This document shows positions 24,356 to 51,014 of a DNA stretch of 64,000 nucleotides, piece after piece; position 1 is the stretch's first letter; the number at the start of each line of letters is the position of its first letter. Source of the DNA: an uncultured Ruminiclostridium sp. (GTDB lineage Bacteria > Bacillota > Clostridia > Oscillospirales > Ruminococcaceae); the NCBI GenBank assembly GCA_947594425.1, contig CANQED010000001.1, positions 1-64,000 on the forward strand, given 5' to 3'. The notes beneath the pieces were generated by a model that did no database searches, was not told the origin of the DNA, and saw only the letters and a program-made list of their open reading frames with translations. Made by a program: the position numbers and the translations under genes.

Positions 24356-24388
24356 GGCAGAATGCTTTGTATTGATTGGCATTCTGCC
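24356..24388 (-). promoter_or_regulatory. Intercistronic hairpin after the WXG100 gene
   Basis: GGCAGAATGC (24356-24365) and GCATTCTGCC (24379-24388) form a perfect 10-bp stem that extends by CATT/AATG after a bulge. There is no T run on the minus strand, so it is more likely an mRNA-stabilising or processing structure than a terminator. It would let WXG100 be made in excess over the downstream genes. Confidence 0.45.
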
Positions 24389-24412
24389 GAATGTCTCCAT
24401 GTGCCAGAGTCA

Positions 24413-24718: not shown

Positions 24719-24789
24719 TTTATTTCCTCCTTTCATATTAAAATTTATATAGTAAAATCAGCGCGAACTGATCCACTACCGATAATTTA

Positions 24790-29283: not shown

Positions 29284-29296
29284 TACTTACATTCCT

Positions 29297-29551: not shown

Positions 29552-29561
29552 ACCGTTTACC

Positions 29562-30617: not shown

Positions 30618-30629
30618 ACCTGCTCCTCC

Positions 30630-31544: not shown

Positions 31545-31561
31545 GTGTTCTCCTTCTTCAT

Positions 31562-31653
31562 GTTATTTACTGCAAGCTGACCTGTGAGCTTACCTCATAA
31601 ATCAGCTTCCGGTAAATAACTCTCCGCCTTCCCGCACGTGATTGTGCGGGAAG
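31562..31653 (-). promoter_or_regulatory. Two nested hairpins before the secretion-core genes
   Basis: GTTATTTAC (31562-31570) pairs with GTAAATAAC (31612-31620). Inside, AAGCTGA (31574-31580) pairs with TCAGCTT (31602-31608), then TGAG with CTCA. A second hairpin, CTTCCCGCAC/GTGCGGGAAG, occupies 31628-31653. On the minus strand they lie immediately upstream of the FHA-gene ribosome site. The 313-base gap 31545-31857 shows no convincing gene apart from a Lys/Arg-rich 65-codon frame (ATG 31868, minus) without a ribosome site. Confidence 0.5.
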
Positions 31654-31857
31654 TACGGAATTTGTTATTATCAGATCGTTTCTTTTGTATGGACGATCAT
31701 TACTTCGTCTATAATTTTGAATTTTTTGGCGAGCCGTTTCTTTTGTCTGAGCCGTTTTCTGCAAAGTCTTTGTTTTCTGAAGTTTTGTGCAATTTTATTC
31801 AGAGCCGATATCTTATGTATATTTTCATTATCGATAACCGTATATTTGCAGCCGGTA

Positions 31858-34800: not shown

Positions 34801-36108
34801 ATCTGCATCGGTATCATACAAAAGCGGAACAAGAGAATTAACTGAAAGGGGGTAATGTTTAAATATAGTAAAGTTTATACCATCTCCACTATAATTTTCT
34901 AAATACCCATTACGAAGCACATCTTCAGTGATATCCTCCGCACCTGCTTCAGTAGCAGCTTCAATTGAATCATAATGACCTCGAACTATTTTTTTTACTA
35001 AAGAAGCAAAATCAGCCTTCCCTCCGCCTAAATAGTTCATCTGCTGAATATAATCATAGTCAAAATAGTATTTTTCATTTGCTGAATAAATCGGCTGTAG
35101 TTCATAAGTCAATGTCGTAATATGTTTTTCACCATCAAATTCAGTTTTCAAATTTGAAAAAACATTTTCCTTAACGCCCTCATTTAGTGAGTATATCTTT
35201 CCATCATGACGGGGATACCAGTTCCAATACCTCATCAAAACATATTTCTTGCTATATTCTTCGCCATCAACATATGTTACAATTTGGAACATTTCATCTG
35301 TGTTTTTCTCTCCAGAGATTTGCCATCCAGTATTAGGAGTTTCCATATTCTGATTTAGTATTTGACCAGTTGTAAAAGGATTTTTTACAGTAACAAGGTA
35401 ACTCCTTCCATTTCCATCATCAACCACCATCGTAGGATATACTTCTAACTTTACTCTTGGGTTTTCTGTTAATTCGGATTTAATATTTAGCCATACGGTT
35501 CCTTCATCTGCTAAGCATCCATCCCATGAACTCTTAAAAGAAAAATCATAATTTAGTATGTCATATACATTGTTATACTTGCTTACCCAGTAATTAACAT
35601 CAGTCGGAACCGCTTTTTTTCTAATAGAATCATCGCTTTGTGTATATATTTCAAGTTCAAGATTATCTTCAAAATTATCCTGCACATATACTCTTACAAT
35701 GTAACGGATATTATTTTCATTTAACTGTCCGTATTTTCCAACAATAATCTCAAGTTGATATGTATCAACGCCTTCTCCTGGATACAGATCAATTGTTTCG
35801 CCTGAGCCAATATTGTATTGTTGATATTCTTCTATTCCGTCCGTCTCATTTTTTAAATACTTCCATACAGTTGTAGCATCCTCTGGGATCTCAATCGGAT
35901 TCCCATCTGAATCCGTGAGCATATTAAGCATGTTGTCTACAGACATTGATGACAGTTGCTTATCTGAATAGCCATAAAGCGCTAAATATGCTTTCTCTTC
36001 CTTCAACGGCAGCATAGATGCCTGTGCGATAACTCCCGTAGAAGTGATAGCCGTTATTACCATCACAAGTGACAGTAAAAGGCATAACGCTTTTTTAATC
36101 ATTTTCAT
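31858..36108 (-). CDS. Large wall-anchored surface protein with FIVAR-like repeats
   Basis: About 1416 residues. Signal peptide MKMIKKALCLLLSLVMVI...AQA; ATG 36108 follows AGGAGG. The N-terminal ~600 residues are unrecognised beta-rich sequence with many Tyr/Trp. An Ig-like region follows (NIGNAPLKELSVELLDAE) and a putative Ig with SGELPEGVELNTKTGEIYGTP (He_PIG type). Then come five ~75-residue helical repeats with the signature AR.AYDALT.AQK..V.NY.KL..AE, like FIVAR sugar-binding repeats. A carboxypeptidase-regulatory-like domain (GQLVDKSGEPMADVPIELHS) precedes the C-terminal SPQTGG, a hydrophobic helix and a basic tail: a sortase signal with Leu replaced by Ser. It overlaps the kinase gene by 14 bases and belongs to the switchable operon. 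Confidence 0.85.
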   Translation of the reverse strand: MKMIKKALCLLLSLVMVITAITSTGVIAQASMLPLKEEKAYLALYGYSDKQLSSMSVDNMLNMLTDSDGNPIEIPEDATTVWKYLKNETDGIEEYQQYNIGSGETIDLYPGEGVDTYQLEIIVGKYGQLNENNIRYIVRVYVQDNFEDNLELEIYTQSDDSIRKKAVPTDVNYWVSKYNNVYDILNYDFSFKSSWDGCLADEGTVWLNIKSELTENPRVKLEVYPTMVVDDGNGRSYLVTVKNPFTTGQILNQNMETPNTGWQISGEKNTDEMFQIVTYVDGEEYSKKYVLMRYWNWYPRHDGKIYSLNEGVKENVFSNLKTEFDGEKHITTLTYELQPIYSANEKYYFDYDYIQQMNYLGGGKADFASLVKKIVRGHYDSIEAATEAGAEDITEDVLRNGYLENYSGDGINFTIFKHYPLSVNSLVPLLYDTDADKITVKVVDNRNKWMEFTDKPIVGETDPWFRVTGATDDQGNAYDTYAVENGKSINMDTYYGYGYQTLFINDPDADLTKLKPNFWYANTDRVYAVSKDTGAKVEEDHIRDFSSENQQYTGVIIDNGKENNRNYWITFKKLNNNGPELYVYGPSEREVILDEYFEYKHDILIANIGNAPLKELSVELLDAENVKLDPYWTVGGTGNDTLAAFTTTSSDTKYGEIPNLAKIRLLPDGEGEVKGTLIIKAKGQEPVLIELNGTAQQPDIITETLTDAVKYVPYSHIVATNNIHDWNEVTFGLYSGELPEGVELNTKTGEIYGTPLKAGEYHFTVEADYTYFEPSFVELTLNVKENTNDNVFEASDDGYDILDTIGEDTYGDHGFVLKETGDQVFRSNGAFADFVDFWLNGEKLIEGTDYDVSEGSTRITIRSQTFENKADKSGSNTIAAEFRTGGGDPNNTHEGELKRTAQNFTIDIQKTDTAVDNVISLIDEIPDTVGSSDKDTIQKARDAYDALTDAQKNKVTNYDKLTAAEQALKSLEEKENNDRAAADAVTAAINSLPYPVTLNDKAAVDSARSAYENLTAQQKKYVSNLNKLIDAENMLKELNDEEKAKIPVNEVITLINAIPESVTLNDEGAVEAARKAYDALTDIQKQDVVNYGKLTDAESTIAALKLQEKANEEDKAAAKTVENLIGELPKSPALSDKASISAAREAYDALTDAQKELVANYSDLVKAENAVSALEEYEKAAEADRKAADKVSDMIAKLPENITLSDKEKVEEARKAYNLLTDAQQKIIANYDELVNAEAVIAQLENEDLQSAEYVTFIGQLVDKSGEPMADVPIELHSEIQTARTDSNGFFRFNTVEMGAHSLTAKDADGNVIASKEFSIVEGTPLSVTENVITAENRSIFTMTIQANDGELVFTALQEGDHTINTDADNSQESSSPQTGGFDIIELRYSLIILVVCGCIMALTCGKTKRNYRHDQ

Positions 36109-38971
36109 TTTGAGTTCCTCCTGAATAATTTTGATTTGCTGATGATATAAGCTCATTTATATTATAAATGCGTGTTTTACGCATATTTCCGGTGGGATAA
36201 TCGAATATCAGCGTTTGTTCGACTATATCGCTTAAGTACGGCAGCGTCGCTATGGCTTCGCAGCTGCCGTTAAGGAGCAGTCCGTAACAATATCCGTCCG
36301 CTGTCACATATTGGGTTATGATATATTCGCCCGCTTGCGTCACATAAGTCAGATATGCGTCCTCTGATAATTCGCAGACGAGATCGCCGCTTTTTAAATC
36401 ATAGACTTTCGGCGCTCCGTGAAGAGGTGACTCGATCCTGAAATTATCGGTCAAAAACTCTTCATCAAGTGAAAGATCGGGCGCGCTCCGCTTTTCTTCT
36501 CCCGCTTTTGTTCCGTCCCTCGCATTATAAATAATAACCGTGCCGTCGTTATAGATCACTTCAAGACGAGAACCGCCGGCGTCCCTTATATACTGCTGAT
36601 CGTAAATTTGCTGAGCATTGGGGATATCGACTTCTTTTATCAGCTCTCCGTCAACCGAATATACTCGGAACTGTTTGTATGAAAACAGCATGACCGTTTT
36701 TCCGTCGCCGCTTATTCTTGCTTCGTCATGCGGATATGAAGGGTCGTAGGTGAAAATTTCCGCTTCGGGATGATTTTCATATTTCATTATCCGAATTACA
36801 GGCGAGTCCATACTTCCGATAAGGGCAATGCCGTTTGATATCTGCAAGAAGTCGCTGCTGTGATCGCTTTCGTGCTTTGATGTAAGAGCGGCTCTTTCAT
36901 CAAAAAACATATATCCGTTTTTGTACGCGGCTATGGTATGCCGATCGCTCACCGCATAGCTTAGGATGTTTTCGGCAGTGGTAATAAGCGGCGTCTGCTC
37001 TCCGGTGACAGGATCTATCCTTACGAGCAGATTTTCGGTTTGCAGACATATGCCGTTTTCATCGGTGCAGACACTGAACGCCTTATCCGATTCAAAGCCG
37101 CCGGTTTGCTCTTGCTTATTTGTGTCGATGACCGCAAAAGCCGATTTATTTGCAGTCGATGCAGAAAAAGCAAAATACCGCTTATAAAATCCCCCTTCAA
37201 AATGACTGTAACCGGAGGCGTCGTCATAAATCATGACGGAATTTTCGGGATCTTTTAAATCCATTAGCTCCAACGAGCCGTCAGCGAAACTGATACCGAG
37301 CAAAGAACCGTCTTCGTTGAGCGAGAGCAGGTTGTCGTTAGGATTGGCAAATATATCGTTTGCGGTTATCTGCTGATGCTTGCCGTCAAAATCCACCGTA
37401 CCCAATTCAACGCCGTTTTCCGCATTATACAACGTTGCGTACGCTTCGTCTTTGTAGATGCCTATAACGGTTTTTTTATCGCCTGATACCGCTATCGCCG
37501 TCGCCGGCTTTCCCTTCCAGAGCTCCGATAGGGTTTTGGTGTTATATGCGCATATACCGTTTGCGCCCGAATAAACGATAATGTCATTATCAATAAATTC
37601 GACCTCCGACAGTGCGGATATGTCCGTATTCAAAGTTGAAATGATTTCGGAGCTTTCCGTGTCAAAAACCGCGGCCGCTCCCGAATAAATACAAGCTGCG
37701 GTTTTCCCGTCGGGAGAAAGAGAAAGGAAAAGCGGAGAAGAGGGGAGCTCAACGGTTTTGTGAGTTTTAAATCCGTCGGACAGGTCGTATACCCCGAGCG
37801 CATCCGCAAGGGCGCTTTGAGCTTTTGCGATGTACTGCGGACCAAATAATTCGCCGTTTTGCGGCAGAGCGTCAAGCGCATATTGTACGGCTTTTGCGGT
37901 GTCGCCGTCAGAAAGAGCGTTTTGCGAATACTCTGCGAGCTTCAGTCGGCTTTCGGTCAATTGCATCCCCTTTAATCCCAAGAAAGAAGCGGTCACGCCG
38001 AAAACAAGCGTTAGACTTGCTATAGCATATGCTATGATCTCGCTTCTTTTTAGCCTTCTTGCGCGCGGATCGTTTTTTCTAAGCTGCAAAAATGACTCGA
38101 GCATTTCGTCCGCCGTTTGAAAACGCAAATTGGGATTTGGCTCCATGGCCTTTTTAATAATTGCCGCAATTTGCGGGCTAAATTCCTTATCGGACAGCGG
38201 AACGACCTCTGTGGCGTCCTTGGCGGGACGTTTACCGCTCAAAAGGTGATATAATGTAGCGCCTACGCTGTATATGTCCGAGCGCACGTCAGGCATAATG
38301 CGCTTTTTTCGTGTTGCGGCCGAGCTTGAGCTTGAGTTTATTTGAGATAATGCGACCGTAGCCGTCTTGTCGTCTATTTTTTCCGTAGGCTCATCAGTGC
38401 CGACAGAGTCGCCGCTGACCGAATAATCCAGTCCGTAGTGCTCCGGCGAGGAATAGCCCACACTAAATCCGACAACATTTTCTTCACCCAAAGCAAGCGC
38501 TATATTAAAATCTATCAGACTTATGTCATTGTTAGGCTTGCGCATAAGATTAGCAGGCTTTATATCACTGTGAACAAAGCCTTTGGGCGGGTCGCCGTGA
38601 ATAGGACTGTGCAGATAGCAAAGAGCTTCGAGGATTTGTATCGCCCATTGAATGACCTGCGGCTGAGAAAATCGCTCGCCTCTTATCAGCGGCTTGTCAA
38701 GGCTCTCTCCGTTTATGTATTCCATAACGGTGTAAACCGTTTTCCCGTCTGTAAAAAAATCATAAACCTGAGGGATATTGGGATGGCTCAGTTCCTTTAA
38801 CACATCGACTTCACGGCGAAATACATCCTGACGTGCGGTGATCTTGCGCTTATCGGCTTTCAAAACAACTTTTTTGCCGAGTCGCAGATGGTTAGCCAAA
38901 AAGACGTTGCCGTTGCCGCCCGAGCCGATTTTTTCTATTATCTCATATGTCCCCGCGATCATTTCAGCCAT
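36095..38971 (-). CDS. Membrane Ser/Thr kinase with extracellular beta-propeller
   Basis: A 958-residue protein. The kinase domain is ~8-295: glycine loop GSGGNGNVF (16-24), Lys38 in VVLKADK, catalytic loop HSDIKPANL (134-142; Arg of HRD replaced by Ser), metal motif DFN (154-156; Gly replaced by Asn), SPEH (APE equivalent, 174-177). A ~47-residue Ser/Thr-rich insert follows before SDIYSVG. A single membrane helix is at ~311-333. The outer ~620 residues have repeated D-G-K-T and blade-like strands (SLSPDGKTAACIYSG, AVSGDKKTVIGIY, ISGDGKTVMLFSY) of a WD40/PQQ-type propeller, probably a ligand sensor. It works with the PP2C and two FHA proteins in the same operon, likely controlling secretion by threonine phosphorylation. 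Confidence 0.88.
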   Translation of the reverse strand: MAEMIAGTYEIIEKIGSGGNGNVFLANHLRLGKKVVLKADKRKITARQDVFRREVDVLKELSHPNIPQVYDFFTDGKTVYTVMEYINGESLDKPLIRGERFSQPQVIQWAIQILEALCYLHSPIHGDPPKGFVHSDIKPANLMRKPNNDISLIDFNIALALGEENVVGFSVGYSSPEHYGLDYSVSGDSVGTDEPTEKIDDKTATVALSQINSSSSSAATRKKRIMPDVRSDIYSVGATLYHLLSGKRPAKDATEVVPLSDKEFSPQIAAIIKKAMEPNPNLRFQTADEMLESFLQLRKNDPRARRLKRSEIIAYAIASLTLVFGVTASFLGLKGMQLTESRLKLAEYSQNALSDGDTAKAVQYALDALPQNGELFGPQYIAKAQSALADALGVYDLSDGFKTHKTVELPSSPLFLSLSPDGKTAACIYSGAAAVFDTESSEIISTLNTDISALSEVEFIDNDIIVYSGANGICAYNTKTLSELWKGKPATAIAVSGDKKTVIGIYKDEAYATLYNAENGVELGTVDFDGKHQQITANDIFANPNDNLLSLNEDGSLLGISFADGSLELMDLKDPENSVMIYDDASGYSHFEGGFYKRYFAFSASTANKSAFAVIDTNKQEQTGGFESDKAFSVCTDENGICLQTENLLVRIDPVTGEQTPLITTAENILSYAVSDRHTIAAYKNGYMFFDERAALTSKHESDHSSDFLQISNGIALIGSMDSPVIRIMKYENHPEAEIFTYDPSYPHDEARISGDGKTVMLFSYKQFRVYSVDGELIKEVDIPNAQQIYDQQYIRDAGGSRLEVIYNDGTVIIYNARDGTKAGEEKRSAPDLSLDEEFLTDNFRIESPLHGAPKVYDLKSGDLVCELSEDAYLTYVTQAGEYIITQYVTADGYCYGLLLNGSCEAIATLPYLSDIVEQTLIFDYPTGNMRKTRIYNINELISSANQNYSGGTQNEND

Positions 38972-39173
38972 CGTTATATTCCTCTTTGTCGTTTGCCTGT
39001 GCTTTTTGCCGCTCAGACCTTTTTACCCGTTTGCCGTATTCGGCATCCATGCGAGCGTTTAAATTAGTTCTTTTGATCGTAAATATGACAAAATTGCCGA
39101 CAGCAAGCAGCAGAGCCGCCGCAGATATTATTGTCCCTGTGTAAAATACCGTATCGCTTGTGAGCCATTCCAT
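38964..39173 (-). CDS. Small single-pass membrane protein
   Basis: A 69-residue protein with one hydrophobic helix at ~9-31 (VFYTGTIISAAALLLAVGNFVIFTI) followed by a strongly basic and then acidic cytoplasmic tail (KRTNLNARMDAEYGKRVKRSERQKAQANDKEEYNDG). Its ATG overlaps the PP2C stop by one base and its end overlaps the kinase start by eight, so it is translationally coupled to both. I do not recognise a family. A scaffold or membrane anchor for the phosphatase/kinase pair is a plausible guess only. Confidence 0.7.
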   Translation of the reverse strand: MEWLTSDTVFYTGTIISAAALLLAVGNFVIFTIKRTNLNARMDAEYGKRVKRSERQKAQANDKEEYNDG

Positions 39174-39952
39174 TACTTTCCCTCGCTGTCTGCATTTACT
39201 TTGATCACTATAACGGAAATATTATCCTTTTCTCCGCGTTCTTTCGCAGTGTTGATCAATGTCCTTATGCTTTCTCTTAATTGTTTTTCACTTGATTTTT
39301 TACCGTATTCAAAAGCATTCAGCATTTCGCTTTCCGTAATAGTATGACGAAATCCGTCGGAACACAGTATATAAATTCCCGTATCGGTCTTTCTTTTCAA
39401 AATTTGCGGCTCTATCGTTTTTGACGCCCCGATACATTGAAGCAAAAGATTTCGCCGCTTGTCGTTTTTTGCCTGATCGGGCGTTAAATATCCTCTGATG
39501 ACTTCTCTTGCTACAAATGTCTGATCAACGGTAAGCTGTTCAATATGGGAATTGATTTTATATATCCTGCAGTCACCGACATGAAGGATCAGATATTCGT
39601 CGCCTACAAACAGGATACCGGAAAATGTAGTTCCCATATTTGCTTTATTCTTTTGTCCGTAATCCCTAATTCGGGTGTTGATATCTTTAAGCAGCAGCGT
39701 TAATTTGCTGCCGACGATTTGAATATCAAAATCCTCCATCTCGAAAGGCAGCAAATTTGTAAACCAGTCAGAAAACGCACGTATTACAACAGCGCTGGCA
39801 AGCTCTCCCTTTGACAGTCCACCCATTCCGTCACAAATAACAGCCATGAGGATCTCGGTGTTATCATATATCGCGTGCTTTATAAGTAAGCTGTCCTGGT
39901 TTATTGCCTTGTTAACACCTATATCGGTATCTGCGACAGCAAAAAATCTCAT
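39173..39952 (-). CDS. PP2C-type Ser/Thr phosphatase
   Basis: A 259-residue PPM-family phosphatase with all main motifs: ADTDIGVNKAINQDSLL, VICDGMGGLSKGELAS, MGTTFSGILFVGDEYLILHVGDCRIY, CSDGFRHTI, and EKDNISVIVIKV. The aspartates of CDG, GD and DN are the metal ligands. It should reverse phosphorylation by the kinase encoded downstream. ATG 39952 (MRFFAVADTD) is preferred: AGGAAGTGAG precedes it and it begins at the first conserved strand. An ATG at 40012 would overlap the FHA gene and has no ribosome site. Confidence 0.9.
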   Translation of the reverse strand: MRFFAVADTDIGVNKAINQDSLLIKHAIYDNTEILMAVICDGMGGLSKGELASAVVIRAFSDWFTNLLPFEMEDFDIQIVGSKLTLLLKDINTRIRDYGQKNKANMGTTFSGILFVGDEYLILHVGDCRIYKINSHIEQLTVDQTFVAREVIRGYLTPDQAKNDKRRNLLLQCIGASKTIEPQILKRKTDTGIYILCSDGFRHTITESEMLNAFEYGKKSSEKQLRESIRTLINTAKERGEKDNISVIVIKVNADSEGK

Positions 39953-39986
39953 AGTGCTCACTTCCTGTTTCTTGCTGTTTTTCGGC

Positions 39987-41090
39987 TCAAACACTAAATG
40001 TAAATTCTTCATTTGACAGCATTAGTGTGTCACCGTCAAATATTTCCACCTCGTACTGAGCAGGTAATAGTCTCTTGTTTATAAAGGTCTTGTTTGTGGA
40101 ATTTAAATCCAACACATAATAATGCTCTTTGCGTACAACAATATCAGCATGGCTTTTGCTTACTGTGTTGTTATCGGAAATCACATAATCAACACAACTT
40201 TTGTCCTTTCCTAAACGGAACACCGGTTTATCTATTAAGATCGTTTCGCCGGTCGACTTCCTAATTAATGTCGGATAATGAATTAATTCCGTGCTTTCCT
40301 CCTCGTTTAAGAGCTGTGTGCTGTCCTCATCTTCGAGCAGTGCCGTTTCATCTTCGTTAAGAAGAAGAGTAGAGGTTACCTCCCTATCGTCTGCCGAAGC
40401 TGTATGCTCCAATAACTCGGTAGGATCAGAGCAAACTATATCCGATTGTTGATTCTCGCCTGACGCGGATTTTGATTTTGGTACAGGAGTTATTCCATCC
40501 AAAGCTTTATGAGATTTGGCGGTTTCAGACCTTGCTGTTAATTTCGTGACCCTGCTGTCCTCCTGTTCGATATATTTCTGAATTTTTAATGGATCGAATA
40601 CATCCATAGAAGAAAGGAAATACATGAAGCGAGATACAAAGTCAAAATCGCCGTTATCACACATAGGTTTTACCGTATTTGACACCGACTTCATAAACGT
40701 CAAGATATCCGGATTGTGTTGCAATTGTGTAACAGGCAAATAAATAAATTGAAGCTCTTTAGTTGCCTCATTGATATATATATTATCGCATTCCAACAAC
40801 AGTCTGCTTTGATGCAGACCGCTTCTTTTCACTGTTGCGGCAGCCATTGAAATTTGCTGCATTATAAATAGAAATTCGTACTTGCTCAAGAGTTTTTTAA
40901 GGTGCTTTTTCAGCGCAACTCCCTCGGTACCTCTGTACTCTATAATACTTTTTTTGTAGACGCTTGGTTTAAGAAATCCGCGGACAAAGACCCTACAGAT
41001 AAGATCAAGTTCTTCAAAATCAATATCCTGCGAAGAAAGCTTTACTTTCACTTCCAATTGACCGCTTTTGCTCTTTGCTTTGATTTTCAT
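39987..41090 (-). CDS. FHA-domain protein with tandem threonine motifs
   Basis: A 367-residue protein. Residues ~1-180 are an alpha/beta domain related to that of the FHA protein at 30630-31544 (LLLECDNIYINEATKELQFIYLPV, DFDFVSRFMYFLSS). A low-complexity linker contains closely spaced motifs T-LLLNEDE, T-ALLEDED and T-QLLNEEE (~240-272), an acidic threonine pattern suitable for kinase phosphorylation. The C-terminal ~90 residues are an FHA domain (PVFRLGKDKSCVDYVIS, VSKSHADIV, NSTNKTFINKRL). A phosphothreonine in the linker could dock to its own or the other FHA domain (inference). The start is three bases after the HTH gene stop. Confidence 0.85.
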   Translation of the reverse strand: MKIKAKSKSGQLEVKVKLSSQDIDFEELDLICRVFVRGFLKPSVYKKSIIEYRGTEGVALKKHLKKLLSKYEFLFIMQQISMAAATVKRSGLHQSRLLLECDNIYINEATKELQFIYLPVTQLQHNPDILTFMKSVSNTVKPMCDNGDFDFVSRFMYFLSSMDVFDPLKIQKYIEQEDSRVTKLTARSETAKSHKALDGITPVPKSKSASGENQQSDIVCSDPTELLEHTASADDREVTSTLLLNEDETALLEDEDSTQLLNEEESTELIHYPTLIRKSTGETILIDKPVFRLGKDKSCVDYVISDNNTVSKSHADIVVRKEHYYVLDLNSTNKTFINKRLLPAQYEVEIFDGDTLMLSNEEFTFSV

Positions 41091-41093
41091 TAC

Positions 41094-41408
41094 TCAATCA
41101 CCGTTATTATCGAACTTTTGTTCTGCCAGCATATTTATATCCTCTATCATATCGCTTGCGACAATGCTGTTGAAAATCTCCGTATCTCTCTGACGGGCAA
41201 CCATAATTATGGCAAGACAGGTATCCCAGCTTAAATTAACTACGCCTCTTTCGATTTTTGATATTTGCTGACGGCTTTTCCCGACAAGCTTACCAAGCTG
41301 TGTTTGACTGATATTAAAAGCTTTTCTCAGTTCAGGCAGCTTTTCCGTCATTTCAAACAATATGTCGCTTTGCGGTACTTTTACATCAATAATTTCATTC
41401 ATTTTCAT
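41094..41408 (-). CDS. XRE-family regulator at the head of the type VII/kinase operon
   Basis: A 104-residue Cro/CI-type protein. The HTH is at ~23-80: LPELRKAFNISQTQLGKLVGKSRQQISKIERGVVNLSWDTCLAIIMVAR. ATG 41408 follows ACGAAAGAG; a GTG directly before it is also possible. It is the first gene of the minus-strand block running to 21 kb, and its start lies only eight bases from the left inverted repeat of the invertible segment. It may bind the switch or operon promoter. The downstream FHA gene begins three bases after its stop. Confidence 0.85.
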   Translation of the reverse strand: MKMNEIIDVKVPQSDILFEMTEKLPELRKAFNISQTQLGKLVGKSRQQISKIERGVVNLSWDTCLAIIMVARQRDTEIFNSIVASDMIEDINMLAEQKFDNNGD

Positions 41409-41416
41409 CACACTCT

Positions 41417-41441
41417 TTCGTAGAATATCTCATTCTAAGAA
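41417..41441 (-). repeat. Left recombination site of the invertible segment
   Basis: On the minus strand this reads TTCTTAGAAT, then spacer GAGAT, then ATTCTACGAA. The identical 25 bases occur on the + strand at 42848-42872, giving a perfect inverted repeat pair. The two 10-base arms are themselves inverted copies (9/10 match) around the asymmetric 5-base spacer, the form of a tyrosine-recombinase crossover site. Confidence 0.9.
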
Positions 41442-41467
41442 AAACGTTAAAACTATTCACTTCAAGC

Positions 41468-42634
41468 CTATTTTTCATCCGACTGACCATTTTTCTGACC
41501 ATTTATTCCCGAAACCAACTCTAATTGTCTGCGCTTATACTCGAGTGAAGAATGAACATATATATTGAGCGTGATATTAACACCGGAGTGCCCTAAAATC
41601 TCACTTAATGATTTTATGTCCATACCCGCTTCAACGCAGCGAGTGGCAAAAGTGTGCCTTAGACAATGATAGTTAAAACTTTGCAAATTGCATTCGTCTA
41701 AATATTTGTGAAAATAATTCTCAAAGCTTCTCGGGTCACTATATTCATAGGTTTTTCCCGGTATAACAAAGCCGCCCGACTTCTTACAGCGGATCATCAG
41801 CGGCATTATTCCTGACGGTATAGGGATAACTCTATCGGAAAATACCGTTTTCACCCCGCAGAGTACAAGTCGAGTTTTATTTTCTTGCATATTCGGCGCA
41901 ACGTTTGTTATCCTTTCCACGGTGTAATGAACATGAACGGTCCTTTCTGTCAAATCAACATCTTCCCAGCGCAATCCACAAACTTCTCCTATACGAAGCC
42001 CCATACGAAGCGATAGCAAAACACCGAGTTTTCTTTCGTCGATATCCGAGGTCAAATATTCTTCCAACATATCCTGCTCTTTATGTGACATGACTTTAAC
42101 TCCATGCCTGCGTTTTTGTTTAGCGGGTCTTGAAATCGAACCGAAAGACATAGAGCGATATCCTTCTTTTAATGAAAAATCAAGTGTTGAAGATATAATA
42201 AAGCAAATTGTTTGAATATAGCTTGATGAAAGACCGCCGCCTCCATCTAATCTTCCGTTGCTTGATTTTGCATAAATAAATCGGTTGACGGTCGGAGTAT
42301 CTATATTATTGATTTTTATCTTACCGAGAACCGGCAGGATATGCTTGCTTATCAAGCTATAATATTTTGCATAGGTCTGATCTTTGAGATTATTTCGTTT
42401 GCTTTGAAGCCAAAGGAAAAGTACTTCACGAAAAGTCAAATCGGACCTCGCGGCGGAAAATGTATTTTTGGATGCCTCTTCAATCGCCTCGTTAAGCTTC
42501 TTTTTGACATTAAGATATGTGCTTGCGTATACTGAGCCATACTTTGCTTTTCCCGTAGTATCATATGTTTTGATATATCTTCCTTCCCATCTTCCGTCTT
42601 TGCGTTTGCGGATGTTTTCTCCTCGCCTTGGCAT
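41468..42634 (-). CDS. Tyrosine recombinase inside the invertible segment
   Basis: A 388-residue phage-integrase-family protein. The N-terminal AP2/arm-type beta domain (RRGENIRKRKDGRWEGRYI...YASTYLNVKKKL) is followed by a SAM-like core-binding domain (~55-160) and the catalytic domain with Arg in SLRMGLRIGEVCGLRW, H-x-x-R in YHCLRHTFATRC, His in LGHSGVNITL and Tyr in NIYVHSS. ATG 42634 follows GGAGAG. It lies between two perfect inverted copies of a complete crossover site, so it most likely inverts its own segment rather than integrating an element. Two direct repeats TTTTTGACCC just before the gene could be arm sites. As oriented, its transcript runs toward the type VII operon. Confidence 0.92.
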   Translation of the reverse strand: MPRRGENIRKRKDGRWEGRYIKTYDTTGKAKYGSVYASTYLNVKKKLNEAIEEASKNTFSAARSDLTFREVLFLWLQSKRNNLKDQTYAKYYSLISKHILPVLGKIKINNIDTPTVNRFIYAKSSNGRLDGGGGLSSSYIQTICFIISSTLDFSLKEGYRSMSFGSISRPAKQKRRHGVKVMSHKEQDMLEEYLTSDIDERKLGVLLSLRMGLRIGEVCGLRWEDVDLTERTVHVHYTVERITNVAPNMQENKTRLVLCGVKTVFSDRVIPIPSGIMPLMIRCKKSGGFVIPGKTYEYSDPRSFENYFHKYLDECNLQSFNYHCLRHTFATRCVEAGMDIKSLSEILGHSGVNITLNIYVHSSLEYKRRQLELVSGINGQKNGQSDEK

Positions 42635-42780
42635 AATTATCTCTCCATTCAATGAATTTTTGACCCGTTTTTTGACCCTTAATAGCTCTAAAAGTCTTCC
42701 AGAACACGGGATAAACTATGTATATTATAATACTTCGGGCAGGATTTGGCGGATTTTTGTCTAAATTTTAGTATCGGGTA

Positions 42781-42809
42781 TTGACAATGAAAGCGTCATG
42801 GAGTATAAT
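42781..42809 (+). promoter_or_regulatory. Consensus sigma-A promoter inside the invertible segment
   Basis: TTGACA (42781-42786), a spacer of exactly 17 bases, and TATAAT (42804-42809): both hexamers are perfect. As sequenced it points right, out of the segment into the terminator at 42908-42955. After inversion it would point left, about 65 bases of leader ahead of the XRE gene at 41408. Confidence 0.88.
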
Positions 42810-42847
42810 AAATACTGTAAAAATTAAGCGGCAAATGGAATTAAAAC

Positions 42848-42872
42848 TTCTTAGAATGAGATATTCTACGAA
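42848..42872 (+). repeat. Right recombination site of the invertible segment
   Basis: TTCTTAGAAT, spacer GAGAT, ATTCTACGAA; the exact inverse of 41417-41441. The bases beyond the 25-bp unit do not match on either side, so the repeat is precisely one crossover site. Confidence 0.9.
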
Positions 42873-42907: not shown

Positions 42908-42955
42908 GCCCCGACTGTCCTCTTTAAAGAAGATAGTCGGGGCATATATTTTTTT
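42908..42955 (+). terminator. Terminator facing the invertible promoter
   Basis: GCCCCGACT (42908-42916) pairs with AGTCGGGGC (42935-42943), followed by ATATA and seven T on the + strand only. No + strand gene precedes it, so it appears to exist to stop the outward transcript of the promoter at 42781. Confidence 0.85.
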
Positions 42956-43021: not shown

Positions 43022-44197
43022 TCACTCTATCCTTTCCGCGTCCTTAGCGAACTGCGAAAGATCGCGCCCTTTAAGGACGAGCCCGAGCAGCTCGGGGAGC
43101 TTTTGCGGAGAGCAGGCAAAGCACGGTATGCCGAGCCGTGAGAGCTTGCCTGCGACGGCCGCGTCGTAATAGGGCTTTCCTCGGTCGGCGAGCGCTAATA
43201 GGCACACGACGGTAACGCCCGAATGCTTCATCTCCTCCATACGCCTTATAAACGCGGCGCGGTTTCCTCCCTCGTCAAGGTCGGAGATGAGGAAAAAGAG
43301 CGTCTTTTTCGGGTTCTCGATAAGCTGCTGACAGTAGACGACCGATTTATCGATATCCGTGCCGCCGCCGAGCTGAAAGCCATACAGCAGGTCGACGGGG
43401 TCGGAGCATTTATCGGTAAGGTCGACTATATTCGTATCAAAAGCCACAACGTGCGTTTTTACAGAGCTCATACTTGCGAGGATACAGCTTACCACCGAAG
43501 AATAAATGACCGATTCTCCCATAGAACCGCTCTGATCAATGTCGAGGATTATGTTCCACTTGCTTGCGGCGCTGACCGCGGCACGCTCGAAAAAGTAAAA
43601 GTGCTCGGGGACGATAGTCTTAAGCTCGGGAGAATAATGCTTTAAGTTTCTGCGGATAGTCATTTTGTAGTCGAGAGCCGACGCGGACGGTATCGGAGAA
43701 TGCTCGCGGCGGTTGACGGCGGCTGTGACGGCTCGGCGGATATCCTGCTCGAGCAGCTTATTAATATCCTCGACTATCTTGCGGATAAACTCGCGTACGC
43801 TGTCCTTTGAGCGCTTGGGGATCATATCCTTTAGCGTAAGTATCGCGCTTGCAAGGGAGATGTCGGGCTCGGTGTTTTCGAGAATTTCGGGCTCGAGGAT
43901 AAGCTGCTTTAATCCGCAGCGCGTCATAGCGTCGTTTTGTATGACCTTTACTATTTCCTTATCAAAAAGGGTTCTCACGTCGCCGAGCCAACGGGATATC
44001 TGCGGATTTGACGGGCCGTGGCCCGCGCCGCCGCTGCCGAACCCGCCGCTTTCGGTCTTATTGTATATCGCCGCAAGCGCGCTGTCCATAAGGTCCTGCT
44101 CGTCAGAAAGGGCAGGCATATCCATATTTGAAAAGCGGCTGTCGCTCTCCTGCCCGAGAATAAGCCTCCAGCGCTGCATTTGTGCTGTTTTGTCCAT
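43022..44197 (-). CDS. VWA-domain protein of the MoxR/SWIM/DUF5682 operon
   Basis: A 391-residue protein. A helical N-terminal half with a Gly-rich linker (SGGFGSGGAGHGPSNPQ) precedes a von Willebrand A domain from ~215 with a complete MIDAS: DIDQSGSMGES (DxSxS), the conserved Thr in QLGGGTDIDKS, and Asp in LISDLDEGG. MoxR ATPases typically act on or with VWA partners to remodel or load a protein. ATG 44197 follows AGGTGAG. It is the last gene of the operon, nine bases after the DUF5682 stop. Confidence 0.88.
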   Translation of the reverse strand: MDKTAQMQRWRLILGQESDSRFSNMDMPALSDEQDLMDSALAAIYNKTESGGFGSGGAGHGPSNPQISRWLGDVRTLFDKEIVKVIQNDAMTRCGLKQLILEPEILENTEPDISLASAILTLKDMIPKRSKDSVREFIRKIVEDINKLLEQDIRRAVTAAVNRREHSPIPSASALDYKMTIRRNLKHYSPELKTIVPEHFYFFERAAVSAASKWNIILDIDQSGSMGESVIYSSVVSCILASMSSVKTHVVAFDTNIVDLTDKCSDPVDLLYGFQLGGGTDIDKSVVYCQQLIENPKKTLFFLISDLDEGGNRAAFIRRMEEMKHSGVTVVCLLALADRGKPYYDAAVAGKLSRLGIPCFACSPQKLPELLGLVLKGRDLSQFAKDAERIE

Positions 44198-44205
44198 AAT
44201 CTCAC

Positions 44206-46479
44206 CTATATATCAAAGTCCATATCCACTAAAGCGTCAATAGCGTCCTGCGACGCCTCGTCAAGCTTAGCGTTTAGCACCTCGCTTACCTCCTCGACGT
44301 TAAGTCCCCAGATCTCGCCTAAATTTTCGGCTATAGAATTTTTCTCTCCCGCAGAAAAATCCGCGAACGCCCGCCGTAAAAACACCAACGCGCGTTTAAA
44401 TTCGTCGTCGTCAAGCGTCTCGATATACTCGTCGAGGCTTTCCCACAGCGACAGACGCGCTATAAGCCCATAGCGGTTTTTCAGCGTCAGCCCCTCGAAC
44501 CAACCCGCTCCGAGGTCGGCAGGAACGCCCTTAGATAGCCGCCTTGACACCTCGGCTTTAAGCTGCTCGTTCGTCATCTGATTTCTTTCGAGCAAAATCG
44601 CCGTGCTTAGCCCCGAAAGCTTGGTATTTAGGTCGTCGCGCCGCGCGGTCTCACTAAGAGCCGAGAGCCATTTTTCGCCGTCGAGAAAGTCCTGCGCAAG
44701 CTCCACGGAGTTAAGCATATTGATCGCGTCAGCTATCGCCCGAGACGCCGCGTCGTCGCAGACGCACGCGTCAGTCATAACAAGGCAGGCGCGCAGATAT
44801 ATCTGCTGTAGGATAGGAATAATTTCCGAGCAGTCCGCGCGGCGGATATCGCCGTAAGAAATGATATTAGACAGCCGAAAAGCGGTCTTTGCGAGATCCT
44901 CAAACGACACCGTATCGACAGCGGCCTTTTGGAGCGCGGTCACCGCATAGCTTGCCGCCGCGGACATTCCGCAGCAAAAAGCGTCCTCTAAAGCGCCTGC
45001 TATAACGGACATCTCGTCAGTATGCTCGACTTTTTCTTTAAGCTCATACGCCGCCGCGAGCTCGACTGTGTCGCCCTTAAGCGCGCTCTCGACTAAGGCT
45101 ATCTCGCACTCAGGCGTCCAGCTTATATTCCACTCTTCCGACCAAGTGGCGTTGTCCTGCTTAGACGGGACGTATTCGGCAAAGCTTATCCCGAGCACTC
45201 TCAGCTTATGCAAAAAGAACGAGCGGTCAAGGTCAAGAAACGCGGACTTTTCGGTGCCAGCTCTTATATTCTCGCGCAGGTCGAGCTTAAGCTCCTGATT
45301 TGTCAGAGAGCGGTATTTTTCGAGCTTAAGCTCTTTAAGCAAGCGATAAAAATCGTCCTGTATGCTCGTTCTCGACACGCCCTCGGGGAGCGCGCCTATT
45401 TTGGTGCCGATCTCGGTATCCGCCGAGGCGATACTTACAGCCGCAAGGCTGCCCTCACCTATGCAGGTCTCAGCCGCGTCGCGCAGATCCCGCAAGGTGG
45501 GGATATTGCCGCCGCGCATTTTAGCTAGCGAGCCTGCAAGCCTTACGCCCTCGATGACCTGCGCCGAGGACGCGGCGCCGCCGTTTTCACGCATTTTTTC
45601 GGCTATTTTAGAAAGATAGGCGTTTGCGGCGTACATTCTGTCGCCTTTAGACAGTCCCTCCCAGATAAGCTCATAATATGCGGGAGCCTTGTTCCCCGCG
45701 CCATAGCCCGAGCGCGTCGACAGCCGATAATACGAGTACGGCATAAGCGTGTGCAGGGACGAAAGCGTAGGATATGTCGGCGCTTCTTCGTCCGCCTCCC
45801 ACGTTTTCAGCCCCTCGACGTGATATGCGCCGGTAACTACGGCTATTTTCTCGGGAGAAAGCCCGCCGTTTACCGCGTCTTTGATAACCTTGCGCATATA
45901 TATCTCGCGCAGCCTTGTTTCGTTTGCGTCAAATTCGTCCTCTGCGGAAAATTCCCGTATCTTTGCGCCGAAAAGGTTAGCGCCCTCGTGATAAGCCGAA
46001 TAATCGGCGCACTGCTCAAGCGTACGCTCCCAGAAAGTCTCGTGCGAGCCGTCCGCGCTATTCTCCGCAATGCGCTCGTAAACGTCGGGCTTGTGCTCGG
46101 TCTGCTCGAATTTGTCAAAATCGCCGCTTTCGTCCTGCTCGGCTTTTCGTATTTTCTCATCCAAAAGCGCAAGAAAAACCTCCGACGGAAGATCCATAAA
46201 CCGAAACGGAACGTTGTTCTCCCGGCACCAAAGGATAGCCTGATACTCAGAAGAATACTCAGCGAAAGGGTAAAGAATAGTCCTCACGGGTACGCTTTTA
46301 GTGTACGCCAAGATAGCGAACGGCGGCTTTGTCTCGGGTCTTACTATATCGTCAGCGGTGTCCTCAAAATCCGTCGGTGCTTCTATGATAACAAGCTCGG
46401 GACGCGTTTTTGAGAGAAACTCGCGCAGATAATACGCGCCCGCCGGTGAGAGGTGGCGTATTCCGAAGAAGTTTATCAT
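44206..46479 (-). CDS. DUF5682 family protein
   Basis: About 757 residues. The start MINFFGIRHLSPAGAYYLREFLSKTRPELVIIEAP is the DUF5682 signature; further blocks are AVVTGAYHVEGL and PYSYYRLSTRSGYGAGNKAPAYYELIW. The first ~300 residues look like an alpha/beta domain related to TraB/EreA-type folds with conserved His/Glu (inference); the rest is mainly helical. There is no known activity. The ATG overlaps the MoxR stop by four bases (ATGA). It is one of the constant partners in the MoxR-VWA-SWIM cluster. Confidence 0.82.
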   Translation of the reverse strand: MINFFGIRHLSPAGAYYLREFLSKTRPELVIIEAPTDFEDTADDIVRPETKPPFAILAYTKSVPVRTILYPFAEYSSEYQAILWCRENNVPFRFMDLPSEVFLALLDEKIRKAEQDESGDFDKFEQTEHKPDVYERIAENSADGSHETFWERTLEQCADYSAYHEGANLFGAKIREFSAEDEFDANETRLREIYMRKVIKDAVNGGLSPEKIAVVTGAYHVEGLKTWEADEEAPTYPTLSSLHTLMPYSYYRLSTRSGYGAGNKAPAYYELIWEGLSKGDRMYAANAYLSKIAEKMRENGGAASSAQVIEGVRLAGSLAKMRGGNIPTLRDLRDAAETCIGEGSLAAVSIASADTEIGTKIGALPEGVSRTSIQDDFYRLLKELKLEKYRSLTNQELKLDLRENIRAGTEKSAFLDLDRSFFLHKLRVLGISFAEYVPSKQDNATWSEEWNISWTPECEIALVESALKGDTVELAAAYELKEKVEHTDEMSVIAGALEDAFCCGMSAAASYAVTALQKAAVDTVSFEDLAKTAFRLSNIISYGDIRRADCSEIIPILQQIYLRACLVMTDACVCDDAASRAIADAINMLNSVELAQDFLDGEKWLSALSETARRDDLNTKLSGLSTAILLERNQMTNEQLKAEVSRRLSKGVPADLGAGWFEGLTLKNRYGLIARLSLWESLDEYIETLDDDEFKRALVFLRRAFADFSAGEKNSIAENLGEIWGLNVEEVSEVLNAKLDEASQDAIDALVDMDFDI

Positions 46480-47561
46480 TCGTTCAGCTCCCTGCAAGCC
46501 TTATAAAGCCCCATCCACGCCATACCGCGCTTTTTCATAACATTTTCGAGATATTCTTTCCACGCGACTGAGTCCTTGTCGTCATCTTTTACGACAGCGC
46601 CCTGAAGCCCCGCCGCGATATCCTCGTCGGATATCTTGCCGCTGCCAAAGCTGCCGGCAAGCGCCATACTGTTGCAGAGCAAAGAGATAGCCTCGGCGGT
46701 AGAAAGCACGCCCGCGGTGGTCTTGACCTTTTGCTTTTTGTCGAGGGTCTCCCCGTTTCTCAGCTCACGGAAAACGGTGCATATCTTTTCGATGACCTCG
46801 TCCTTGGGAAGAGCGGCATTTAAGTCAAGACTGCCCGAAAGCTGTTCTACGCGCGTTTTGACAATGTTCATTTCCTCTTCAAGGGTCTCGGGCGCAGGGA
46901 GCACCACGATGTTAAAGCGCCTTTTGAGCGCCGCAGACATATCGTTTACGCCCTTGTCGCGGGTGTTTGCGGTGGCGATTATCGAAAAGCCCTTTTTAGC
47001 GGGGACTTCGAGAGAAAGCTCGGGTACGCTTATCCGCTTTTCAGAAAGCAAGGAAATAAGCGTGTCCTGCACCTCCGACGCACAGCGCGAAATTTCTTCC
47101 ATGCGCGCGATAGCCCCGTCCTCCATAGCCGTAAACACGGGACTTTTGAGCATAGCGGCCTCGGACGGACCGTTTGAGATAAGCATAGCGTAATTCCACG
47201 AGTAGCGTATCTGCTCCTCGGCCGTGCCCGCCGTGCCTTGTATAACGCGGGAGGAATTTCCATTTATCGCTGCGGTAAGATGCTCGGAGAGCCAGCTTTT
47301 CGCCGTTCCCGGTTCTCCGATAAGCAATAATGCGCGGTCGGTGACGAGCGTCGCTATCGCTATCTCGACGAGGCGCTCGTGACCTATGTATTTCGGCGTG
47401 ATGACGGTACCGCCGACCTTGCCGCCGCAGATATAAGTTTTCACCGAGCGCGGCGACATTCTCCACCCCTCGGGTATAGGGTCTTTTTCCGCCTTGATAA
47501 GCGCGTTCAGTTCCTCCTCGAAAAGCTTTTCGGCGGGAAGCCTTAATATCGAATTGTCCAT
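46476..47561 (-). CDS. MoxR-type AAA+ ATPase
   Basis: A 361-residue AAA+ protein: Walker A in LLLIGEPGTAKSWLSEHL, the MoxR loop YAMLISNGPSEAAML, Walker B region in AIARMEEISRCASEVQDTLISLLSEKRI, sensor 1 in SIIATANTRDKGVNDMSAALKRRFN, and the sensor 2 helical lid at the C-terminus. This is the ATP-driven remodelling component of the operon. ATG 47561 follows AAAAGGAGAAAG. It is 12 bases downstream of the HEAT-like gene and overlaps DUF5682. Confidence 0.9.
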   Translation of the reverse strand: MDNSILRLPAEKLFEEELNALIKAEKDPIPEGWRMSPRSVKTYICGGKVGGTVITPKYIGHERLVEIAIATLVTDRALLLIGEPGTAKSWLSEHLTAAINGNSSRVIQGTAGTAEEQIRYSWNYAMLISNGPSEAAMLKSPVFTAMEDGAIARMEEISRCASEVQDTLISLLSEKRISVPELSLEVPAKKGFSIIATANTRDKGVNDMSAALKRRFNIVVLPAPETLEEEMNIVKTRVEQLSGSLDLNAALPKDEVIEKICTVFRELRNGETLDKKQKVKTTAGVLSTAEAISLLCNSMALAGSFGSGKISDEDIAAGLQGAVVKDDDKDSVAWKEYLENVMKKRGMAWMGLYKACRELNE

Positions 47562-47573
47562 ATCTTTCTCCTT

Positions 47574-49421
47574 TTAATGCTGTTCAGTCCAAAAATGCTC
47601 TATAAACTCGCGTATATCCTCTAAATCGAGGTTGAGCTTTATTTTGTTGCTGTTTGCGTAGCTTTCGAGGTTGTCGATCTCTTTGCATAAGTATTCATAG
47701 TCGCTCGGCACCCAGCGCAAGAATTTATACGCATCGTTGAATTTGTCCTTAAACTTCTTGTGATTTGCTTTAAAATATTCCGTGACGAGCCCCTCGACAT
47801 TTTTAAGACCCAAGGCTTTTATCATCAGCAAATAATTGATATAGTCCTCGCCCTCGACTATTCGCTTAAAATAATGCTGTTTCAGCTTCTCGCGCATAAC
47901 TTCGTCATCAGGGTCGTACAGCTCACATGTAAAATTGTCCGCCATATACCAGTCGCAGTCAAAGAGCATATCTATCCACTTTTCTTTTACGGGATGATTT
48001 ACCGGGAGCGTATATGTCTCGGCCACCTCGGCGGCATTGAACTGACCGTCGAATACTTTATACTTAATGAAATACTTTCCGTCGGCGCATTTTATATTTT
48101 TCATGCAGGACATCGCGGGGGTGTAGAATACGCCTTTATTGCTTTGCTTAGACGCGCGTTTTTTAGCCTCGAGGACTTTCTTTTTGAGCCAGTCTGTGCA
48201 GTCGTCATTGCCTATAACTCTCGCGTAAAAGGCGGTCTCTTCAAACTGAGCGGGATATTTATTCTCAAGCTCGAGCGCGAGGGCGCACATCTCGGGGTCG
48301 CCCGTCGTCGCGACGGTCGTTGTCAGCGCGTTGCTTACAAGCTCTCTTATTTGCGTCCTCATCGCTTTTTTGTCGTCGTCCGCTAAGCATATCCTTCTTA
48401 TAACGTCCGCAACGTCCTTGCCTAACTTTCCTTGAAACGCGTAATACTCGATATCAACAAGCCCTAAGCCGTTCATCTTATAATCCCCGCCGTCGTTGTT
48501 GTCGAGCAGGCGGTTGCCTATCTTCGCGGCGAGCCTGCTCGCCCACGGGGTACGGCTGTATTTTAAGTATTCAAGCGTCTCCTGCGGCTTTTTCTGCTCC
48601 ATTTGCTCAAAAAATCCACGCGCCTTGTCGCAGTCGAGCCTTGCGAGGGTGTAATACGCCTCGTCCTTTATCGCGCCCTTTTCGGTGCTTATCAGCTCAA
48701 TCAGCTTGTCGGCGTTGCCTGCGTCGTGCCTTAGCGCGCGCACGAGCAGCTTTTTAATATTCTTCTCGGCGAGCGGGAGGTTTTCTAAATAAAAGTCGTT
48801 AGCCTTTTCTTTTCCGAGGGTATCTATAAGCAGGACGCGCCTTATCATCTCCTTTTTGCCCTTAGGGTCAAAGCCTTTTTTTAGCAGCGGGAGCATATCC
48901 TCGCCCATATTCTCGATTATCCCGAAAACCATATCCGCAAGGTCTGAATAGGACGCGCCTAAGCCCTTTACCAGCGCGGGCTTTACGCGATAGTCTCGGA
49001 GCAGCTCGGAGCGGCTGTCGACGGCCTCTTTTACTTTATTGTACTGCCCGCCGCCCGATTTAGTGAGCGCGTTTATCAGCACGGAGAGCTTAGAATACGG
49101 GGCGTTTATTATCTCGGCGGAAAAGTCCTCTAAGGGTATATCTTCCGTATCGCCTTGTACGTCATATCCCGCGAGAGCCACCGTAACGGAATCGGTGAGC
49201 GTCAGCGCGTCGAGCAATGTCCCCGCCGCGTCCCCGCTTTCTCCCGAAACAAGCTTATTTGACAGCTCATATATCTTGCCGAAAACGGGCGACGCGTCTT
49301 TAAGCGGCTCTATCGCGCCGACCGCCTTTTTCAGCCTGAAATTCTCACTCAGCAGATCTGCGCCCGCTATCGCCGCCGAACGCAGTTGCGAGCGAAGCTC
49401 AAAAATAGGTGTAGTATCCAT
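47574..49421 (-). CDS. Alpha-solenoid (HEAT-like) protein of the MoxR operon
   Basis: A 615-residue helical protein with loosely repeated helix pairs (LLKKGFDPKGKKEMIRRVLLIDTLG, KNIKKLLVRALRHDAGNADKLIELIS, KDEAYYTLARLDCDKARGFFEQM), consistent with HEAT-like solenoids. A small beta-rich insert (YFIKYKVFDGQFNAAEVAETYTLP) lies at ~440-465 and a charged helical C-terminus follows. I do not recognise a named family. It is a constant-size partner between the SWIM and MoxR genes, so it likely scaffolds that complex. ATG 49421 follows GAGGAGG. Confidence 0.75.
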   Translation of the reverse strand: MDTTPIFELRSQLRSAAIAGADLLSENFRLKKAVGAIEPLKDASPVFGKIYELSNKLVSGESGDAAGTLLDALTLTDSVTVALAGYDVQGDTEDIPLEDFSAEIINAPYSKLSVLINALTKSGGGQYNKVKEAVDSRSELLRDYRVKPALVKGLGASYSDLADMVFGIIENMGEDMLPLLKKGFDPKGKKEMIRRVLLIDTLGKEKANDFYLENLPLAEKNIKKLLVRALRHDAGNADKLIELISTEKGAIKDEAYYTLARLDCDKARGFFEQMEQKKPQETLEYLKYSRTPWASRLAAKIGNRLLDNNDGGDYKMNGLGLVDIEYYAFQGKLGKDVADVIRRICLADDDKKAMRTQIRELVSNALTTTVATTGDPEMCALALELENKYPAQFEETAFYARVIGNDDCTDWLKKKVLEAKKRASKQSNKGVFYTPAMSCMKNIKCADGKYFIKYKVFDGQFNAAEVAETYTLPVNHPVKEKWIDMLFDCDWYMADNFTCELYDPDDEVMREKLKQHYFKRIVEGEDYINYLLMIKALGLKNVEGLVTEYFKANHKKFKDKFNDAYKFLRWVPSDYEYLCKEIDNLESYANSNKIKLNLDLEDIREFIEHFWTEQH

Positions 49422-49431
49422 AATTACCTCC

Positions 49432-50895: not shown

Positions 50896-51014
50896 TGTTA
50901 ATTCTCCTTTGTAATTTAATAAAAAAACCGTTAATTTAATTATACACTTTTTATAATAATATTTCAATGGATTTTATGTAAAAAAGAATTATTTTATCTC
51001 GGCAAAAACGAATA

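Follow-up and report, generated by a model that had tools for sequence, protein, structure and literature searches.

The 64-kb stretch of DNA analyzed here, referred to below as the window, probably carries a self-contained phase-variation cassette of ~1.46 kb, which has a Hin-like layout built with a tyrosine recombinase and adjoins a predicted type VII secretion operon. Two inverted 25-bp repeats, separated by 1406 nt, delimit the segment and enclose a recombinase gene together with a strong outward promoter. The cassette and its immediate surroundings comprise the following features:

41417-41441, minus strand: left recombination site of 25 bp, with a 5-bp spacer between two 10-bp arms
41468-42652, minus strand: tyrosine recombinase gene within the putative invertible segment (PF00589 and PF14659, above the Pfam cut-offs)
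42504-42533, plus strand: second promoter-like match, inside the recombinase gene, 11/12
42724-42752, minus strand: weak candidate promoter for the recombinase gene, 9/12, a chance-level score
42781-42809, plus strand: outward promoter TTGACA-17-TATAAT, 12/12 consensus, which would drive the operon after inversion
42805-42834, minus strand: another weak candidate promoter toward the operon, 9/12
42848-42872, plus strand: right recombination site of 25 bp, matching the left site in inverted orientation at 25/25 positions
42908-42943, plus strand: intrinsic terminator just beyond the right site, -26.6 kcal/mol, z -6.8, followed by a U run

A preliminary description of this DNA had reported perfect 25-bp inverted repeats at both ends of the segment, each made of two 10-bp arms around GAGAT; the repeats are indeed complementary at 25/25 positions, and the description of their make-up (arm TTCTTAGAAT / spacer GAGAT / arm ATTCTACGAA) is right. 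The arms of each site are symmetric at 9/10 positions and the 5-bp spacer is asymmetric. Apart from these repeats, the 64-kb window has no non-overlapping inverted 20-mers that match perfectly (chance would give ~2e-6 perfect pairs of 25 bp), and a search of the 2.6-Mb genome allowing up to three mismatches returned exactly two copies of the site. Crossover by tyrosine recombinases between inversely oriented spacers leads to inversion of the intervening DNA, not to its deletion. Since the spacers of the two sites are mutually inverted, recombination between them would invert the segment and not delete it.

The enclosed gene encodes a 394-aa protein. Its ORF is complete, as had been claimed, and so are its catalytic motifs: GLRIGE, HCLRH, LGHS, and NIYVH were all found and align with the Int protein in PDB 6emy (presumably the Tn1549 integrase), which is the nearest solved sequence (E 6e-17). 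The stop codon lies just 26 nt from the left site. From its position inside the segment and its catalytic motifs, this gene would supply the cognate site-specific recombinase of an inverton. Inverted repeats enclosing a promoter beside an operon, the other hallmark of invertons, are likewise present, the promoter being recognized by sequence only.

The outward promoter reaches a 12/12 score that was unmatched in shuffles of that cassette end (0/100). As sequenced, it is aimed away from the operon and into the strong terminator, whose stability was attained by 0/200 shuffles; the perfect sigma-A promoter directed outward into a terminator, as first described, is thus present. Inside the segment, only two candidates read toward the operon, both with 9/12 matches. 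The recombinase gene itself reads toward the operon, and no terminator-like site was flagged between the two in the sequenced orientation, so that weak read-through expression is possible, in line with the caveat already attached to the locus. In the inverted orientation, the leader to the first XRE ATG would measure ~68 nt if transcription starts at 42816, close to the ~65 bases estimated before.

Immediately beyond the left site begins a block of minus-strand genes, which contains the following:

41094-41411, minus strand: XRE (HTH_3) regulator, first target gene (PF01381)
39987-41090, minus strand: DUF6382 and FHA protein, TseJ-like (PF00498, PF19909)
39173-40012, minus strand: PP2C phosphatase, TseF-like (PF13672)
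36095-38971, minus strand: Ser/Thr kinase, TseD-like (PF00069)
31858-36156, minus strand: 1432-aa Ig-like protein, TseI-like (PF05345)
30630-31544, minus strand: second FHA protein (PF00498)
29562-30617, minus strand: MinD/ParA-like ATPase, AAA_31 (PF13614)
29297-29551, minus strand: YukD/EsaB-like protein, TseB-like (PF08817)
24790-29283, minus strand: EssC/TseC-like ATPase (TIGR03928, 1121 bits vs. a cut-off of 778)
24413-24736, minus strand: WXG100 protein (PF06013)
21014-24252, minus strand: small proteins, and a 514-aa product matching no Pfam family

The XRE ORF opens at GTG 41411, 5 nt from the left repeat; the distance grows to 11 nt for its first ATG (41405). The gene therefore adjoins the repeat as reported, at a distance of 5 or 11 nt in place of the eight bases given earlier. 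Because only 5-11 nt separate the repeat from the possible starts, no promoter fits there; a separate strong promoter directly before the XRE gene that acts in either orientation, named beforehand as a finding that would speak against a switch, is ruled out. Relatives of this XRE protein occur in 3/197 genomes of the family, its own included, and it is no family marker.

The same-strand block was confirmed to run from XRE to ~21 kb on the minus strand and is T7SS-like. Its domains agree with the target proposed initially, a type VII secretion and Ser-Thr kinase operon, and allow a more precise assignment: the block is predicted to encode a T7SSe-like type VII secretion system, or a similar T7SSj, as judged by domains and not by a tree. 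The core genes A, B, C, D, F, I, and J of T7SSe/T7SSj were all matched by domain. With regard to T7SSb, the staphylococcal/Bacillus type, EssC scores over its NCBIfam cut-off, but the EsaA, EssA, and EssB families were absent among the ORFs given to Pfam, a set that covered part of the small ORFs. Matches to YwqH-like and DUF5344 families among the small proteins at 21014-24252 are under their cut-offs and that to DUF4176 is over it; the products of this region are probable cargo and partners.

Gaps of 201, 313, 160, and 143 nt occur between called genes of the block. Scanning 21400-41399, in which the first three of these gaps lie entirely and the last lies in part, revealed only one weak 5-pair minus-strand terminator-like site in the gaps (39095-39112), and 60 internal promoter-like sites on both strands vs. 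46.8 expected, i.e., a chance level. Given the four 143-313-nt gaps and the chance-level promoter count, a single transcript from XRE through the type VII genes is putative. Elsewhere in the window, a same-strand MoxR-VWA-type block (43022-50967; AAA_5, DUF5682, VWA_CoxE) lies upstream of the cassette and reads toward it, and the product of 59232-61583 combines a TIR domain at its N terminus with BspA-type leucine-rich repeats.

In the mechanism that we propose, the recombinase encoded inside the segment would recombine both 25-bp sites, and the resulting inversion would turn the segment carrying the recombinase's own gene and the strong outward promoter. In the sequenced, OFF-like state, the rightward promoter would yield a transcript of ~130 nt that stops at the terminator, and XRE and the type VII genes could be reached only at a low level, by transcription through the recombinase gene. 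Inversion (ON) would bring the promoter to ~68 nt before the XRE start, from where it would drive the XRE-to-type VII block, and the recombinase gene would be directed away and still intact, which would make the switch reversible. We infer from the locus that inversion occurs in the source strain and that the state with the promoter toward the operon is the expressed one.

Relatives of the recombinase were detected in 58/197 genomes of the family with its own genome counted (E<=1e-30), in 15/60 genomes at the genus level (E<=1e-40), and in 8/398 genomes, from five families, across a sample of the phylum (E<=1e-60). The cassette survey comprised 81 distinct recombinase genes from fetched loci (tblastn, E<=1e-25), with viral and Listeria loci left out. 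Among the 71 genes with enough flank, 61 are enclosed by repeats with a score of at least 15 (810 shuffles scored 14 at most) and 10 are not, L014 and L047 being scored as not enclosed despite the imperfect sites in them. Together with four cassettes with short flanks, these genes form an enclosed set of 65, in which L055 is doubtful (low-complexity repeat, score 15). A further scan of genome contigs yielded four loci, including one clearly enclosed cassette, L003.

The layout of these cassettes is similar to that in the window. The repeats lie at median distances of 85 nt past the recombinase match and 183 nt before it, and TTCG or CGAA is present in 48/65 arms vs. 17% of random stretches. 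An outward promoter with at least 10/12 matches occurs at the 5' end of 54/65 cassettes and is missing in 11/65; the corresponding counts are 10/65 for inward promoters and 2/65 for the 3' end. The best outward 5'-end promoter has a mean score of 10.6 of 12 over the 65 cassettes; for 37 cassettes analyzed earlier it averaged 10.35, and dinucleotide-shuffled versions of those stretches averaged 8.56. The identity between the two sites of L018, L048, and L049 spans the outer arm and the spacer and ends in the inner arm, as expected if the spacer is exchanged and the inner arms move with the segment.

Viral contigs were screened too, and their loci were not used: the P0001 loci (80 kept) are all distant, with 23-28% identity among the matches listed, and the exact site has no match in the viral contigs. 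In the three Listeria loci excluded from the survey, the top-scoring repeats reach 15, 11, and 9, and no locus has a family-type site.

Cassettes of the family precede unrelated operons, and even sister copies in one genome have different targets (in G243, L235 lies before EssC and L246 before a LytTR gene). Such a distribution would also suit a small mobile element that has terminal inverted repeats, inserted itself before the operon, and switches nothing, an explanation that we regard as very improbable. No direct duplication was seen by eye beside the window arms, the outward promoter is kept in 54/65 cassettes, both orientations are found before homologous targets, and both junctions occur in one assembly; portability, moreover, is compatible with switching.

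The evidence on orientation, which bears directly on the phase switch, comes from the same 65 cassettes. A cassette was termed OFF-like if the recombinase 3' end faces a gene reading away and the other side faces a gene reading toward it. By these classes, which rest on simple longest-ORF gene calls, 31 cassettes are OFF-like, 9 are ON-like, 15 are flanked on both sides by genes reading away, 6 have no flanking gene that reads away, and 4 are without a gene on one side. The 31:9 skew among the 40 clear cases differs from 1:1 (p 0.0007). Two cassettes called ON-like, L017 (= L117) and L030, have the signal-peptidase-like homolog on the 3' side and hence may be OFF-like, so the true skew may exceed 31:9. 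The bias may reflect flipping that is biased or rare, or use of the co-directional state itself.

Homologous targets were observed on opposite sides of the cassette. The LytTR-type target flank is on the 5' side in L031 and on the 3' side in L018, L036, L048, and L050 (Pfam LytTR confirmed in L048 and L036), and the signal-peptidase-like flank is on the 5' side in L012 and L015 and on the 3' side in L024 (Pfam in L012). Type VII loci that contain FHA, PP2C, kinase, and EssC genes differ as well: that of G031 is ON-like and that of the window OFF-like. Close relatives show no orientation difference: the L021/L051 and L114/L115 pairs have homologous flanks and the same orientation within each pair, the LytTR cassettes L018, L047, L048, and L050 agree as far as their flanks reach, and L218 and L219, with near-identical recombinases, are both OFF-like.

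In one relative, both junctions were found. The genome G126 has three sister cassettes before LytTR-type loci, on contigs C44, C104, and C121 (= L050, L018, and L047, respectively), and on C44 the target flank is joined to the cassette 3' end inside the contig and to the 5' end in the last 55 bases. We read this double junction as an assembly-graph branch from a mixed population. Exchange among the sister copies is an alternative origin of the 55-base end: C121 shares the flank, and the spacers at its ends are unlike, which itself suggests exchange between cassettes. The switch proposed in the preliminary description is thus backed by the anatomy of the locus, the layout of 65 relatives, opposite orientations at homologous targets, and the two junctions of one relative. 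The main uncertainty concerns polarity and rate, since the OFF-like bias and the rarity of terminators would also fit low-level co-directional expression.

In a scheme of reverse polarity, the co-directional sequenced state would be the expressed one, with the recombinase and type VII genes on one transcript, and the strong promoter would silence or redirect expression after inversion. Consistent with this scheme, 31/40 clear cassettes, perhaps 33, are co-directional, and just 26 nt lie between the recombinase stop and the site in the window. A terminator between the recombinase stop and the target was found in at least 3/31 OFF-like cassettes vs. at least 13/31 past the 5' arm; these counts are lower bounds because the terminator rule missed the window's own outward terminator, a mismatched hairpin, and the few terminators before the target make read-through possible. 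Nevertheless, we consider reverse polarity unlikely: only two 9/12 candidates read toward the operon vs. the 12/12 outward promoter, and the flipped promoter would enter the operon with a ~68-nt leader. We therefore retain the assignment in which inversion toward the operon would turn expression on.

To place the window among related secretion loci, we used a type VII sample of 27 loci, consisting of 24 EssC loci of at least 470 bits from the 197-genome family sample (window included) and three from the genus; weaker EssC matches were not taken, and several loci end at contig ends. A cassette stands at the head of 5/27 loci (the window, G243, G236, G124, and G031). EssC directly follows the cassette in G243, lies ~10 kb downstream in G236, with intervening called genes on the same strand except one of ~124 codons, and ~16 kb downstream in G031. 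In G124, a site is located just before the EssC gene, the sites are 28/31 alike, the outward promoter scores 12/12 with an 18-base spacer, and the recombinase is split over contigs C44 and C45. Within the genus, EssC is encoded in 5/71 genomes (E<=1e-120), three of which (3/5) have the cassette.

A sixth type VII locus, in G153 (L091:5100-5797), has an XRE gene, a perfect promoter, and, by eye, a seemingly decayed recombinase start at the contig end, and is possibly a switch frozen ON. Locking may therefore occur, and the window could by analogy be a former switch now held in the sequenced state; with both of its sites perfect and its recombinase ORF and catalytic motifs complete, we find this quite unlikely. 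An active cassette remains our preferred reading of the window.

A recombinase tree was built for 64 of the 65 cassettes, 12 of them with a target label; L055 was dropped, and G124 was left out, its recombinase being divided between two contigs. The four full-length type VII-linked recombinases require four changes on this tree, all forced by well-supported branches among the labeled rows, and the association of the cassette with type VII loci thus most likely arose repeatedly. The recombinase closest to that of the window (55%, G115) heads a Tad-type operon with TadZ-like, T2SSE, and weak T2SSF matches. Another recombinase, in G224, heads a block whose first gene is similar to the MinD-like ATPase gene of the window and is probably the one TadZ-like member in a scan of 30 target proteins (29 of the 31 in the terminator analysis, and L031). 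The first target gene is often a regulator, namely XRE in the window and LytTR in 5/30 target proteins and also in G236; an integrase match was obtained for 3/30.

The source genome contains further cassettes. A second one is found on the same contig (L040:5330-6552, corresponding to 69330-70552), ~27 kb from the first; it has a different site and is OFF-like, and its target begins with a sigma-70-family (ECF-like) gene. Four more (L041:238-1440, L042:5173-6375, L044:5614-6816, and L045:6194-7441) each precede a second tyrosine recombinase-sized gene, followed by glycosyltransferase genes at L041, L044, and L045 and by IspD and zinc dehydrogenase genes at L042. Three of these four share an identical 20-base site, so that cross-talk or large rearrangements are possible. 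A similar gene pair with one recombinase relative, without detected enclosing repeats, precedes a glycosyltransferase gene at L043:5096-7187 and is a possible locked or decayed switch.

With some reserve, we lean toward a broader interpretation, in which a tyrosine recombinase, an outward promoter, and two private sites form a portable phase-switch module that is widespread in this family of Bacillota-type genomes. Type VII loci would have acquired the module at least four times, and Tad-type operons, LytTR and sigma regulators, surface proteins, and glycan loci would have acquired it too; with at least six cassettes in the source genome, secretion, regulatory, and surface-glycan programs could vary independently from cell to cell. 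If the window cassette flips, type VII secretion joins flagella, capsules, and fimbriae under bet-hedging by DNA inversion. Single cells could then turn a secretion machine on or off, and its expression in mostly-OFF cultures would escape population-average assays. Repeated capture by type VII and Tad-type loci would offer a route to other costly surface systems whose silence in culture means that they are switched off, not dead. Since the cassette is self-contained, one gene and two sites should be enough for a test in a laboratory host.

Invertible promoters are well known. In the flagellar switch of Salmonella (Hin/fljBA), the serine recombinase Hin acts at hix sites with a Fis-bound enhancer. 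The window cassette shares with this system a recombinase gene inside the invertible segment and an outward promoter for the neighboring operon; it has no serine recombinase at hix-type sites and differs in its tyrosine recombinase (PF00589), its ~1.46-kb segment, and its type VII target. The available part of PMC5903667 likewise names Hin as a recombinase within an invertible segment, and it describes the Cdi switches of C. difficile as short invertible regions, some of which need RecV. The resemblance to Cdi/RecV lies in the clostridial background, the tyrosine recombinase, and the inverted repeats before surface or motility genes (PMC5903667, in the same part), whereas each cassette here brings its own recombinase. 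Thus, the comparison with RecV made at the outset is sound as to the recombinase type and less apt than that with Hin, because the recombinase gene itself sits inside the invertible segment. A putative 844-bp invertible segment of Providencia stuartii, described in the same portion of PMC5903667, also encloses a recombinase ORF within inverted repeats beside a surface locus; unlike the window, it belongs to a Gram-negative species, has 14-bp imperfect repeats, and flanks a fimbrial locus.

With T7SSe/T7SSj, as presented in the accessible text of PMC11217815, the target block shares WXG100, YukD-like, EssC-like ATPase, Ser/Thr kinase, PPM phosphatase, DUF6382 and FHA, and giant Ig-like proteins; no word starting with "invert", "phase", "promoter", or "recombinase" occurs in the main text of that source as accessible. 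A search of literature on type VII secretion and inversion, which most subscription papers fell outside, found no type VII locus switched by promoter inversion. Other kinds of variation appear in the available parts of two papers, homopolymer-tract variation at ESX-1 (PMC11898584) and chromosome rearrangements in S. aureus (PMC6778178). The nearest counterpart among gut Clostridia is inverton group 139 with invertase group 35, whose repeats are Clostridia-dominated (32/33) and linked to a nearby tyrosine recombinase (PMC11892184, as far as available; "type VII" and "T7SS" are absent from its main text to that extent). This group may overlap with the present cassette family.
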